Shown here: one piece after another, positions 52,012-62,382 of the stretch
Numbering within the stretch: position 1 is the first letter of the stretch
Layout of the letters: each line of letters opens with the position of its first letter
Origin: Xenorhabdus ishibashii
GTDB taxonomy: Bacteria > Pseudomonadota > Gammaproteobacteria > Enterobacterales > Enterobacteriaceae
Length of the DNA stretch: 64,000 nucleotides
Assembly (NCBI RefSeq): GCF_002632755.1
Contig: NZ_NJAK01000001.1
Location: 62,001 to 126,000 of the forward strand
Direction: 5' to 3'
Program-made: the position numbers and the translations under genes
Notes under the pieces: generated by a model
What the model saw: only the letters and a program-made list of their open reading frames with translations
What the model was told of the DNA's origin: nothing
The model's database searches: none

Positions 52012-53517
52012 ATGAACACACTGAATGTTATAAGAAACAATATGGAGTTGTCACACCCAGTTGAAGTGCTAGAGACATTATTAATACGCCTGTATTTATA
52101 TGACCGAACATCAAACAAAGATATTTCATTAAAAAGCGGTCTACCTATTCCTATCATCTCCGCATTTAAAAAAGAATTAATAAAATATGATTACGCTGAA
52201 AACAAAGGTGTTTTTAAGTTAAACTCTATCGGCGTAAAATATGTACAAAATGAGCTGGGATACCGATCAATTGATATAAATAAATATAACTTGCTGTCAT
52301 CAGAGGAGAAACGAGAAGAGTTTGAGCAAGAGCTTTCCGTTTTATTGGCGCCTATATATAACAGCAGACCTAAAGTCAATGTTTTGTTAGATCAAGCACA
52401 TGCGACATTAGAGACATCAATACGCCGGGTAATGCTATTACTTAATAACCCAAGAGTATTTAAACAAAATATTTTATTTTTGGGTGATGATGATTTAACT
52501 TCCTTAGCCCTGATGATGGCATTTAAAAAACTCGGCCACGGCTGCTCAAAAAATATTTTTGTCAAGGATATCGATCAGGACCTGCTAATATTTATTCGGG
52601 ATGTCGCAGAGCAAAATGATTTTGTCATTAATACTGAATACTTAGATCTGAAACTTTCTAATGTATACACTAAAAATTTTGATATCGTCTTGACTGATCC
52701 TCCTTATACATTGAGCGGATTAAAACTATTTTTATCACGTGCTATTAGTTTCACTAAAAATGATAATAGTGAGATTTTACTCTCCTTTGGTCAAAAAAAA
52801 CCAATGGAAAACCAAGAAGCTCAAAGGTTATTTAACAACCAAAATCTTCTTATCAGACATATTTATCCGCAATTCAATAAATATCATGGCGGAAGTATTA
52901 TCAGTAATGTCAGCGATCTCTATGTTCTTTCTGTTACACCTCAAACATACCCAACAATCCCAGGAGGAAATAATTATTCAGATAAACTCTATACCGGAGA
53001 AATTAACCCTCGTGTAAAATTTTACCAATGTAAATCATGTAATAACATGATAACCATTGGACACGGAAAGAACATATTAACGATAGAACAGCTCATAGAG
53101 GCAACTTGTAATAAGTGTCACGGCACTAAATTTCAATATCGTGGTCAGGAAAAAGTCAGTACATCGGATAATACACGACAACTTGGCACTCACATGATCA
53201 TAGATATGAAAGATTGTGATGCAGAAGTACTGAAATCTGTATCAGCCATTGAAAAAATCATGCTTGAGATTGCCCAACAATGTGAGCTGAATGTGATTAC
53301 TCATCACTTCCATCAATTCCAACCATGGGGTGTCAGTGGTGCGCTAATATTAGCAGAGTCACATTTTACTATTCACACTTGGCCTGAACATCAATATGCC
53401 GCTCTTGATTTATTCGTTTGCAATGAATTTAAACATCAAGATACATTTATGATGCGGCTACAAACGCAGCTTAATGCTCAAGAATATGAATATAAGATAT
53501 TACAGCGAGGTTTTTAA
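52012..53517 (+). CDS. Fused BpsA-like aminopropyltransferase and S-adenosylmethionine decarboxylase (SpeD)
   Basis: 501 residues with two enzymes of polyamine synthesis. Residues 1-about 110 are a winged-helix-like start. Residues 110-330 are the DUF43/BpsA Rossmann core with FLGDDDLTSLAL, VKDIDQDLLIFI and the catalytic-type DPPYT motif, as in branched-chain polyamine synthase of hyperthermophiles. A CxxC...CxxC pair follows (YQCKSCNN, ATCNKCHG). Residues about 385-501 are a short bacterial SpeD: LGTHMIIDMKDC and AESHFTIHTWPEHQYAALDL, with the self-processing serine at 450, where cleavage forms the pyruvoyl group. SpeD makes decarboxylated AdoMet, which the N-terminal enzyme would use to transfer aminopropyl groups. 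BpsA is known mainly from archaea and thermophilic bacteria, so this gene is unusual here. The acceptor amine is unknown. Base composition is clearly AT-richer than flanking genes, suggesting transfer. Confidence 0.8.
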   Translation: MNTLNVIRNNMELSHPVEVLETLLIRLYLYDRTSNKDISLKSGLPIPIISAFKKELIKYDYAENKGVFKLNSIGVKYVQNELGYRSIDINKYNLLSSEEKREEFEQELSVLLAPIYNSRPKVNVLLDQAHATLETSIRRVMLLLNNPRVFKQNILFLGDDDLTSLALMMAFKKLGHGCSKNIFVKDIDQDLLIFIRDVAEQNDFVINTEYLDLKLSNVYTKNFDIVLTDPPYTLSGLKLFLSRAISFTKNDNSEILLSFGQKKPMENQEAQRLFNNQNLLIRHIYPQFNKYHGGSIISNVSDLYVLSVTPQTYPTIPGGNNYSDKLYTGEINPRVKFYQCKSCNNMITIGHGKNILTIEQLIEATCNKCHGTKFQYRGQEKVSTSDNTRQLGTHMIIDMKDCDAEVLKSVSAIEKIMLEIAQQCELNVITHHFHQFQPWGVSGALILAESHFTIHTWPEHQYAALDLFVCNEFKHQDTFMMRLQTQLNAQEYEYKILQRGF

Positions 53518-58730: not shown

Positions 58731-59648
58731 CTACCGACTATTTTTTCTTGGTACTCGTTGGTTAACAAACGCATCAAATTCGCTATCTGAATCTGAATGC
58801 TGAGGTCTTGATACTCGTTGATTAACAAACGAATCAAATGCACTATCTGGTTCTGAACGCCGAAGTCTTGATACTCGTTGATTAGCAAACGCATCAAATG
58901 CACTATCTGGTTCTGAACGCTGAAGCCTTGATACTCGTTGATTGGCAAACGCATCAAATGCACTATCTGGTTCTGAACGCTGAAGCCTTGATACTCGTTG
59001 ATTGGCAAACGCATCAAATGCACTATCTGGTTCTGAACGCTGAAGCCTTGATACTCGTTGATTGGCAAACGCATCAAATGCACTATCTGGATCTGATGAT
59101 TGAGGATAGTACCACTGATACAAACCATAAGCAGGATCATGCCTCAACTGCCTATCCTCTTCCTCTGAATAATAGTGACCACCTCTATCTGTTTTATCAA
59201 TAAAATGACGGTTTACATTGGGCATTGAACGAAATTGCGTCGTTGGATAAACTCGTGTGCCTCCTAACGAGCCTTTAACTGGCATATTAATATAATCGGC
59301 CAATTTTTGAGCAAGCCCATTAGATCCAGAGTAGCAAGCTATTATTCTGACACAGAGAATATTTTGTCCTCTGCTTCTTATATCAGTTAATAATGCTTTG
59401 ATTGTTTGGCAAAAAACATTCAAATTCATTCCGGGATTATACGCAGATGCTCCAGCAAATAATATTGTTCTGCCCACTGGAGATGAGTGTCCTATAATAT
59501 TGAGCCGATCTCCCGACTTATGTCTTGGTGTATCTAAAAAATAATGAAATCGCTTCTCCTGATGAAAATTTACTTCAACCGTTTGCTGCAGCAACACATC
59601 ATCAGGCATTGCTATAATATTAGAGATTGTGTGTCGATACTGTCCCAT
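58731..59648 (-). CDS. Clan CD-like cysteine-peptidase-type protein with C-terminal 20-residue repeats
   Basis: 305 residues. The N-terminal 180 residues have two strand-end motifs typical of caspase/C80-like folds: RLNIIGHSSP with His54 and VRIIACYSG with Cys105, followed by LAQKLADYINMPVKGSLGG. This is the layout seen in MARTX/TcdA-type self-processing domains, so a peptidase-like or effector role is possible, but I did not identify an exact family. Residues about 185-305 are six copies of a 20-residue unit (PDSAFDAFANQRVSRLQRSE), likely disordered or a binding tail. GGGGGAG lies two bases before the start. No signal peptide. It is convergent with guaA, in an accessory region. Confidence 0.6.
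   Translation of the reverse strand: MGQYRHTISNIIAMPDDVLLQQTVEVNFHQEKRFHYFLDTPRHKSGDRLNIIGHSSPVGRTILFAGASAYNPGMNLNVFCQTIKALLTDIRSRGQNILCVRIIACYSGSNGLAQKLADYINMPVKGSLGGTRVYPTTQFRSMPNVNRHFIDKTDRGGHYYSEEEDRQLRHDPAYGLYQWYYPQSSDPDSAFDAFANQRVSRLQRSEPDSAFDAFANQRVSRLQRSEPDSAFDAFANQRVSRLQRSEPDSAFDAFANQRVSRLRRSEPDSAFDSFVNQRVSRPQHSDSDSEFDAFVNQRVPRKNSR
58751..59098 (-). repeat. Six tandem 60-bp repeats within the CDS
   Basis: Perfect 60-bp periodicity; the copies at 58,921-58,980 and 58,981-59,040 are identical and the outer copies drift. The period is a multiple of three, so copy-number change would keep the frame. Confidence 0.9.
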
Positions 59649-60238: not shown

Positions 60239-60751
60239 ATGCCAACTGTAATCGTCCCCTATAAAAATTTAATCATTAAAAAGGCTGTAAATTCAGCCAG
60301 GACTGCAATTATTTTAGCTCATGGTGGCTATACCCCAAAAAGAAATTATTTTTGTCAAGGTTCTGGGTACACTTATGTCCCCTTTAGGATTAAATTAGTT
60401 TTTAATTGCAAACCCGATGGGGTGTCAATTGGTAAAAAAATGGCAGATGATGTTTTGTATTTCAATAGTCATTCAAATCATCTTATAACCTATGAGATCT
60501 TAGGAGGCAGCATAATTAAAAATTATTCCTTAACACATAATGATAAATTTTCAGATTATGAACCTAACAATCAGGTTGATATTATTGAAATAAAGCCTCA
60601 TAGCAAAGCGCATATGTCAGATGTTTTTGAAGCTATCAATAAATTAAATTTAGGCTATCAGCTCATATACAATGTAGCATGCAGGATAAATAAGCTAGAC
60701 CAAAGAGCGTTGTATATAGAATCACCAACTAACCCAAGACCTAATTATTAG
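60239..60751 (+). CDS. Putative Stv-like / HG...AC protein
   Basis: 170 residues, AT-rich. The core is AIILAHGGYTP with His28 and YQLIYNVACR with Cys148, each at the end of a hydrophobic strand: a His-Gly and Ala-Cys arrangement again reminiscent of clan CD peptidases. The LAHGGY motif also recalls small proteins annotated as putative adhesin Stv domain; that link is from memory and is weak. No signal peptide or membrane segment. The ribosome-binding site is poor. It lies head-to-head with the repeat-tailed protein gene, 590 bases away. Confidence 0.5.
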   Translation: MPTVIVPYKNLIIKKAVNSARTAIILAHGGYTPKRNYFCQGSGYTYVPFRIKLVFNCKPDGVSIGKKMADDVLYFNSHSNHLITYEILGGSIIKNYSLTHNDKFSDYEPNNQVDIIEIKPHSKAHMSDVFEAINKLNLGYQLIYNVACRINKLDQRALYIESPTNPRPNY

Positions 60752-61639: not shown

Positions 61640-62382
61640 AACAGTTTAATGAAAATGCAGAATCTTATGATATCGCAAGGGGAAAGATCACCTACCCCGA
61701 TGAGTTATATCGTTCACTCTCTGTCCGAGCACCTTCAAATGAAGCTGCATTGGATATTGGCTGCGGCAATGGCGTTTCTACCATTCATTTGAAAGAGTAT
61801 TTTGCTTATGTTCAAGGGTGTGATCTTGGTGATGCTCTTATTGAGCGAGCGTGCCATAGCTATCCTGATATAACGTTTAGCGTATCTCCAGCAGAAACTT
61901 TTTCTCCGCCACGCAATTATGACCTGATAACCAGTGCAACCTCATTTTACTGGATGGATCGTCAAGTAGTGTTAATGAATTTACAAAAGTGGTTAAAATC
62001 CGGAGGGCTTTTTTGCGCCTATAAATATGATTTTCCAATGGTTTATGGGCCTTTGCGCGATTATATTGAAAAAGAATTGATCTCGCGCTGGGCAAAGTAC
62101 CGAGATTCTCGTCTGACACAATATGATGATACGCTCGAACTGATGCGTGATTGTCCGCACTTGTATAACGCACAACGAGAGGTGTTTGCCAATATTATTT
62201 TCCTTTCTGCAGAAGAATTAGCATTGTTTTTTTTATCTACTAGCTACGTGACTCGCTATATTGAGCTGGAAGGTGGGGAGGCTTACGCTCATGAATTTAT
62301 GGAAAATGTCATGACAATTGGTGGTGCCAATTCGATTGCTGTTAACTTTGATATTCATGCTGTTACTGCGGTAAACCGCTAG
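61636..62382 (+). CDS. Class I SAM-dependent methyltransferase
   Basis: 248 residues starting at GTG, coupled to the cupin gene by the GTGA overlap. Motif I is LDIGCGNGVS, the acidic residue after the second strand is in QGCDLGDAL, and ITSATSFYWMD fits motif IV of the UbiE/small-molecule methyltransferase class. The C-terminal half is a helical cap. The substrate is unknown; the cupin-methyltransferase pairing suggests a small-molecule modification operon of which only part survives. Confidence 0.75.
   Translation: MKQFNENAESYDIARGKITYPDELYRSLSVRAPSNEAALDIGCGNGVSTIHLKEYFAYVQGCDLGDALIERACHSYPDITFSVSPAETFSPPRNYDLITSATSFYWMDRQVVLMNLQKWLKSGGLFCAYKYDFPMVYGPLRDYIEKELISRWAKYRDSRLTQYDDTLELMRDCPHLYNAQREVFANIIFLSAEELALFFLSTSYVTRYIELEGGEAYAHEFMENVMTIGGANSIAVNFDIHAVTAVNR

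Follow-up and report, generated by a model that had tools for sequence, protein, structure and literature searches.

The window analysed here, a stretch of 64,000 nucleotides (positions 62,001 to 126,000 of contig NZ_NJAK01000001.1) from Xenorhabdus ishibashii, which belongs to a mesophilic, insect-killing genus, harbours an open reading frame (ORF) joining a domain of the BpsA type to a C-terminal S-adenosylmethionine decarboxylase (AdoMetDC) domain of the SpeD type (Table 1). Translation of the window DNA yields 501 residues plus stop from an ATG start, and bears out the initial annotation, which had reported the BpsA motifs GDDDLTSLAL and DPPYT and a SpeD with a cleavage site at Ser450 in one frame. 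The fusion is genuine and frequent within the genus. An assembly or frame artefact is ruled out, as 17 loci, each on a contig of its own and drawn from 16 named assemblies, hold the fusion at full or nearly full length, and 21 of the 30 genomes of the genus have it intact (one genome per species in all genome samples). Comparative analysis and modelling demonstrate both domains, with their key residues and predicted folds, as well as purifying selection on the fusion and a mobile, accessory distribution.

Table 1. Location of the fusion gene and its features in the window
Feature	Positions	Strand	Basis
BpsA-like/SpeD fusion ORF, 501 residues, ATG start	52012..53517	+	Translation; intact homologues in 21/30 genus genomes
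N-terminal helical region, residues 1-105	52012..52326	+	Profile alignment with BpsA N-terminal part; helices in model
BpsA_C catalytic domain, residues 115-310	52354..52941	+	Pfam
GDDD motif, residues 158-161 (T. kodakarensis BpsA G157-D160)	52483..52494	+	Kept in 22/22 intact copies
TDPPYT, residues 228-233; D229 opposite T. kodakarensis BpsA Asp225 by count along alignment	52693..52710	+	Kept in 22/22 intact copies
Cys4 segment C340-x2-C343 ... C366-x2-C369, residues about 336-378, in place of BpsA acidic tail	53017..53145	+	Two CxxC pairs
Class-1b SpeD domain, residues 389-501	53176..53514	+	Pfam, NCBIfam
E449-S450 codons, site of predicted self-cleavage and pyruvoyl formation (Ser63 in Thermotoga)	53356..53361	+	Alignment
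C470 codon, for the catalytic Cys (Cys83 in Thermotoga); missing from 4/22 intact copies elsewhere	53419..53421	+	Alignment

Domains and catalytic residues of the fusion

With regard to the N-terminal half, Pfam BpsA_C (PF01861) matches with an E-value of 5.3e-36 and 124.5 bits, against a gathering cut-off of 27. Its sequence relatives in the PDB are Pyrococcus furiosus 2qm3 (8.2e-18), deposited under the title of predicted methyltransferase, and Thermococcus kodakarensis BpsA (Tk-BpsA) 5xnc (2.7e-16), and the fusion profile aligns with both from residue 3 or 5 onward. As described in passages of PMC12979288, Asp159 and Asp160 of Tk-BpsA position decarboxylated S-adenosylmethionine (dcSAM), Asp225, Glu259, Tyr290 and Tyr316 activate the amine, and acidic residues in a flexible tail (Glu339, Asp342, Asp343, Glu344, Glu345) first carry the aminopropyl group, which is then transferred to spermidine; the C-terminal region holding this cluster tunes product choice in swap experiments reported there. 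In the fusion, where GDDDLTSLAL begins at residue 158, the equivalents of Asp159, Asp160, Asp225 and Tyr290 are kept as D160, D161, D229 and Y291 (alignment, counted from GDDD), and that of Tyr316 could not be placed.

The C-terminal half matches Pfam AdoMet_dc (PF02675) over residues 394-500 (E 8.9e-35, 119.7 bits, cut-off 25) and the NCBIfam model TIGR03330, adenosylmethionine decarboxylase of the B. subtilis type (120.8 bits, cut-off 75.65); both halves delimited by the initial annotation thus score well above the cut-offs of their families. Thermotoga SpeD 1vr7 is its PDB sequence relative (2.3e-24); identity to Thermotoga SpeD is 40% over 113 columns in Foldseek and 36% in VIA-align. In the Thermotoga enzyme, Ser63, His68 and Cys83 are essential for processing, and His68 and Cys83 also for catalysis, according to the relevant part of PMC10407285. 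The window copy possesses all three as S450, H455 and C470; E449-S450 lies within LAESHFTIHTWPEH, encoded by gag (53356-53358) and tca (53359-53361). Ser450 and His455 are kept in all 22 intact copies, and Cys470 in 18 of them. The window copy has both of the prolines found in the central Thermotoga block (P438 and P458), and therefore the proline said to mark a true AdoMetDC is probably kept, whichever of the two it is.

A spacer of 99-104 residues (19 aligned proteins) separates the FNxY motif from SpeD. The zinc-ribbon-like segment that had been noticed here stands as regards its Cys pairs (340/343 and 366/369), both of which are present in 21 of the 22 intact copies, and the segment recurs in 18 of the 19 aligned proteins, L023 lacking one Cys. 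Its zinc-ribbon fold, on the other hand, was not confirmed, an 82-residue model reaching a predicted local distance difference test (pLDDT) score of 64 and the best PDB matches, MCM N-terminal domains, having E-values of 0.4 or worse.

Distribution in and beyond the genus

Matches to the fusion occur in 25 of the 30 genus genomes; besides the 21 with an intact, full-length gene, four (G586, G593, G597 and G606) carry only fragments or stop-bearing versions, and five are without a match. G596 possesses a second intact copy, and fragments of second copies are present in G581 and G591. In the second copy of G588 (L070 1061-3667), some 1.07 kb of DNA interrupts the gene near residue 330; this insert includes an HTH_38 ORF and, from a weak match, an integrase-core-like ORF, and has the look of an insertion element.

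The family sample yielded a match in 3 of 198 genomes (1 of 154 genera). In the phylum sample (Pseudomonadota), PF01861 matched 12 of 398 genomes at E 0.001, four of them over the cut-off: two in Xenorhabdus, and two stand-alone proteins with NPPW instead of DPPY and no SpeD in the surrounding 2.5 and 3.6 kb. None of the 28 plasmid records with a match covered 80% of the query, compared with one of 138 phage records, and three scans of the viral contigs revealed no full-length fusion, one locus matching residues 440-499 only. A 4.3-kb record from human faeces labelled 'Bacteriophage sp.' carries one fusion from outside the genus, of 555 residues and with 34% identity across almost the whole protein; about 1.1 kb in the first 1.3 kb of this record is 75% identical to Parabacteroides/Phocaeicola plasmid DNA, and the record is therefore probably a Bacteroidales mobile element. 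A stand-alone BpsA-type protein of 554 residues, with GDHD for GDDD and TDPPYT kept, was also seen in the actinomycete Nonomuraea (L025 11671-13335). Absence of any PADLOC match at E 0.01 ruled out a known anti-phage defence protein.

Proposed function and competing explanations

From the sequence and the models, we consider it fairly probable that the fusion is a bifunctional accessory enzyme, which makes dcSAM and transfers the aminopropyl group to an amine, a branched product being one possibility. The SpeD half would cleave itself before Ser450 to form its pyruvoyl cofactor, and would then decarboxylate S-adenosylmethionine; the resulting dcSAM would pass to the BpsA-type half, be bound at GDDD and donate its aminopropyl group to an amine acceptor, most likely spermidine or another amine, leaving methylthioadenosine. 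The donor side of this predicted reaction is well supported, and we infer both enzyme activities from the sequence. The acidic carrier tail being missing, the aminopropyl group would probably be passed on directly or by other residues.

Profile search of the 3.86-Mb host genome revealed a single PF01861 gene, the fusion, and two PF02675 genes, the fusion and a class-1a speD (TIGR03331, 470 bits) located directly after speE (TIGR00417, 378 bits). Given this speE-speD pair, spermidine formation is expected to proceed without the fusion, which probably provides an additional function beside the housekeeping genes, tied to specialised metabolism or stress and not to growth.

Several observations weigh against the bifunctional enzyme. 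The acidic carrier cluster is absent: across the stretch from FNxY to SpeD, no seven residues contain more than three Asp or Glu in any of the 19 sequences, and the densest seven-residue stretch of the window copy has two, versus five in Tk-BpsA 339-345. Furthermore, Lys263 of the fusion stands opposite the acceptor-side Glu259 of Tk-BpsA, at a position adjoined by an alignment gap. The presence of two polyamine-type domains with their main catalytic residues in a mesophilic Xenorhabdus holds, and the branched product that had been predicted from them is one possibility among others. For lack of the acidic tail, the N-terminal half is filed as a PF01861 member and not as BpsA proper, and may work like BpsA. 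The whole-chain model is moderate (pLDDT 70, predicted template modelling score 0.67), and the whole-chain Foldseek match to BpsA is poor, with a template modelling score of 0.35-0.37 on the query and a root-mean-square deviation of about 17-18; consequently, the modelled placement of the parts relative to one another is tentative. A viral structure library returned 20 matches at E 0.001, SpeD and methyltransferase entries among them, with no good whole-chain span.

The remaining adverse points concern the SpeD half. Its catalytic Cys is lost in four of the 22 intact copies (L046, L052, L057 and L058), while GDDD and TDPPYT stay in all 22; Gly precedes Ser450 in three of the four, and the genes of L057 and L058 (L021 and L022) are also altered at F436 and P438. 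As the X. stockiae and X. innexi copies group together (tree support 88/99), the four losses probably represent three events. The number of nonsynonymous substitutions per site (dN) is higher for SpeD than for the BpsA part in 136 of 153 pairs. Together with the housekeeping speE-speD pair, the Cys losses and the further changes in L021 and L022 favour a scheme in which the housekeeping SpeD supplies the working BpsA-type half with dcSAM, and its fused counterpart is a structural or regulatory partner or is decaying. We regard this as unlikely, in that SpeD is still under purifying selection (median ratio of nonsynonymous to synonymous substitution 0.144, a little weaker than for the BpsA part), and Ser, His and Cys are retained in the window copy and in 18 of the 22 intact copies. 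Own-donor channelling, as first suggested, would have the domains it needs; given the host speE and class-1a speD and the lost Cys, self-supply may not be kept in every lineage.

With regard to the BpsA-type half, it appears very unlikely that it is an S-adenosylmethionine-using methyltransferase similar to METTL5-like enzymes, instead of an aminopropyltransferase: GDDD and DPP are as in BpsA, BpsA structures and 2qm3 rank top by Z and by sequence, and the half is physically fused to a likely maker of dcSAM. Hardest to credit is a SpeD half shifted to arginine or ornithine decarboxylation, which would make the acceptor amine and not the donor; parts of PMC10407285 describe such shifts as widespread and the arginine type as little diverged from AdoMetDC in sequence, but the closest solved relatives are Thermotoga SpeD, both central-block prolines are kept, TIGR03330 is matched over its cut-off (scored for the fusion alone), and the one Pelagibacter phage row among the 60 of 153 records listed, HTVC103P and not the assayed HTVC201P, matched at E 5.

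The bifunctional enzyme can be compared with known systems. The N4-bis(aminopropyl)spermidine synthases BpsA of T. kodakarensis and Thermus (EC 2.5.1.128; 5xnc, 6j27) are thermophile enzymes with an acidic carrier tail, whereas the fusion lacks this tail, has Lys opposite Glu259, is joined to SpeD and resides in a mesophilic host. With the class-1b SpeD of Thermotoga maritima (1vr7, 1tlu), the window copy shares the equivalents of E62 and W70-P71-E72 in addition to S63/H68/C83, but here SpeD is the C-terminal domain of a larger protein and not all copies have the Cys. The AdoMetDC-aminopropyltransferase fusions of Candidatus Pelagibacter likewise combine in one chain a class-1b SpeD and an aminopropyltransferase, both functional according to PMC11107197; there, SpeD is N-terminal and its partner gives spermidine plus spermine or thermospermine, whereas in Xenorhabdus SpeD is C-terminal and its partner of the BpsA type (PF01861). 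The SpeD-SpeDC fusions of Desulfotignum and Omnitrophica also place SpeD in a multi-domain polyamine protein, with two SpeD-type domains versus one here, and a Victivallis variant has one degraded domain (both from sections of PMC10407285).

A 2026 review describes BpsA as restricted to thermophiles, a view which the Xenorhabdus fusion family contradicts at the sequence level. No paper on a BpsA-SpeD fusion came up in an open-licence library, where most papers were seen as listings, and the word fusion is absent from the review PMC12979288. In this mesophilic genus, most of the species sampled conserve a BpsA-type domain, physically coupled to an enzyme of the type that produces its donor molecule. 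The fusion renders two questions testable in ordinary E. coli, namely, branched polyamines in mesophiles and BpsA-type transfer without an acidic tail, and the natural variants without the SpeD Cys offer a ready-made comparison.

Gene neighbourhoods and mobility

The fusion coding region has a GC content of 34%, compared with 42-49% for four nearby genes. In several loci (L008, L013 and L018), the DNA is homologous to the window only from about 14 bases upstream of the ATG to about 7 bases past the stop; in L010 and L015, the homology extends a mere 50 bp or so further downstream. By these signs, the fusion is a horizontally mobile, AT-rich accessory gene. In the window, it is flanked by a gene for S-formylglutathione hydrolase (upstream, same strand) and by xseA (downstream, opposite strand); this setting, in which the genes for S-(hydroxymethyl)glutathione dehydrogenase and for S-formylglutathione hydrolase lie upstream of the fusion, is shared with L007, L009 and L011.

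In a second setting (L010, L013, L014, L015, L071 and L072), the fusion and a fatty-acid-desaturase gene are arranged tail to tail; next come a saccharopine-dehydrogenase-like gene and then polyketide synthase (PKS) and non-ribosomal peptide synthetase (NRPS) genes. Pfam assignments cover the genes of L013 and L014 and one of L015, the other loci being assigned by matching order and sequence; the saccharopine-dehydrogenase match of L014, at 22 bits, is under the Pfam cut-off of 25.1. The desaturase and the dehydrogenase are taken to be xcnN and xcnM of the xenocoumacin (xcn) cluster, the individual xcn gene names being putative, our own assignment by gene order. Passages of PMC5055758 and PMC6391269 describe xcnM and xcnN as a desaturase/saccharopine-dehydrogenase-like pair. 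This pair beside PKS and NRPS genes points to xcn, and the fabclavine cluster was rejected as the neighbour.

Including X. mauleonii (L017), whose locus lacks xcnM and xcnN so that the fusion and xcnL meet tail to tail, the fusion adjoins a putative xcn cluster in seven genomes (e.g., L013 11750-18567), and the genes on its other side vary, partly by clade. All six genomes with an xcnM match of at least 73% have an intact fusion beside xcnM on the same contig. In the window genome, the fusion is not beside xcn; the best xcnI match has 28% identity, and an xcnM-like gene (59%) is found on the same contig at a distance of more than 1.5 Mb. The fusion is missing from G584, which does have an xcnI-like gene (62%), and the xcnI match of G595 is a short remnant with stops. 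Co-occurrence of the fusion and xcnM is weak: over the 30 genomes, with phylogeny not corrected, Fisher's test gave p 0.04 for any intact xcnM-like gene and p 0.14 for xcnM of at least 73% identity. Of the 13 intact xcnM-like genes, seven (59-64%) are situated away from xcn clusters, with no fusion within the surrounding 9.5-18 kb, where xcnF alone among 12 xcn proteins matched further ORFs (29-30%, two loci). These stray genes, one in each of seven Xenorhabdus genomes, are L099 8392-9480, in the window's own genome, and those of L100-L105; L099 and L105 share a similar ORF run beside the xcnM-like gene, including the ketosynthase-like ORF matched by xcnF.

One reading is that the fusion and the xcn cluster travelled together; the adjacency is also possibly due to chance and inherited in two clades. 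A further conceivable role is in specialised metabolism, as a mobile module that supplies its own donor for aminopropyl transfer, bringing BpsA-type chemistry into a mesophile and yielding a branched or unusual polyamine, or an aminopropylated antibiotic or its target, for self-protection or tailoring around the xenocoumacin locus. Such a module is unlikely, and its chemistry, lacking the acidic carrier tail, would imply a different transfer mechanism.

In a third setting (L019, L020 and L023), the fusion and a TetR-type gene overlap by 8 bases at the fusion start, forming an apparent operon. Strong tetR matches were found in six of the 30 genomes, in three of which (G588 second copy, G583 and G587) the match contains stops or is in two pieces, the latter being the case of L073 (G587); tetR fragments accompany broken fusion copies in G586 and G591. 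When the settings are placed on the protein tree, one change each suffices for the frm group and the tetR-neighbourhood group, and the xcn group takes two; L024 forms a very long branch. The 'tetR' label on this tree denotes shared neighbours for L021, L022 and L073, and two of its six 'tetR' rows are without a close tetR, L021 and L022 having no close tetR homologue in their genomes (G603 and G592).

Elsewhere in the window, a tandem array of a 60-base unit (58747-59096; 5.8 copies, 94% matches) lies within a minus-strand ORF (58731-59648) whose only match is a weak one to DUF2852, and a 170-residue ORF at 60239-60751 carries a Stv putative adhesin domain (PF21527, E 8.7e-11).
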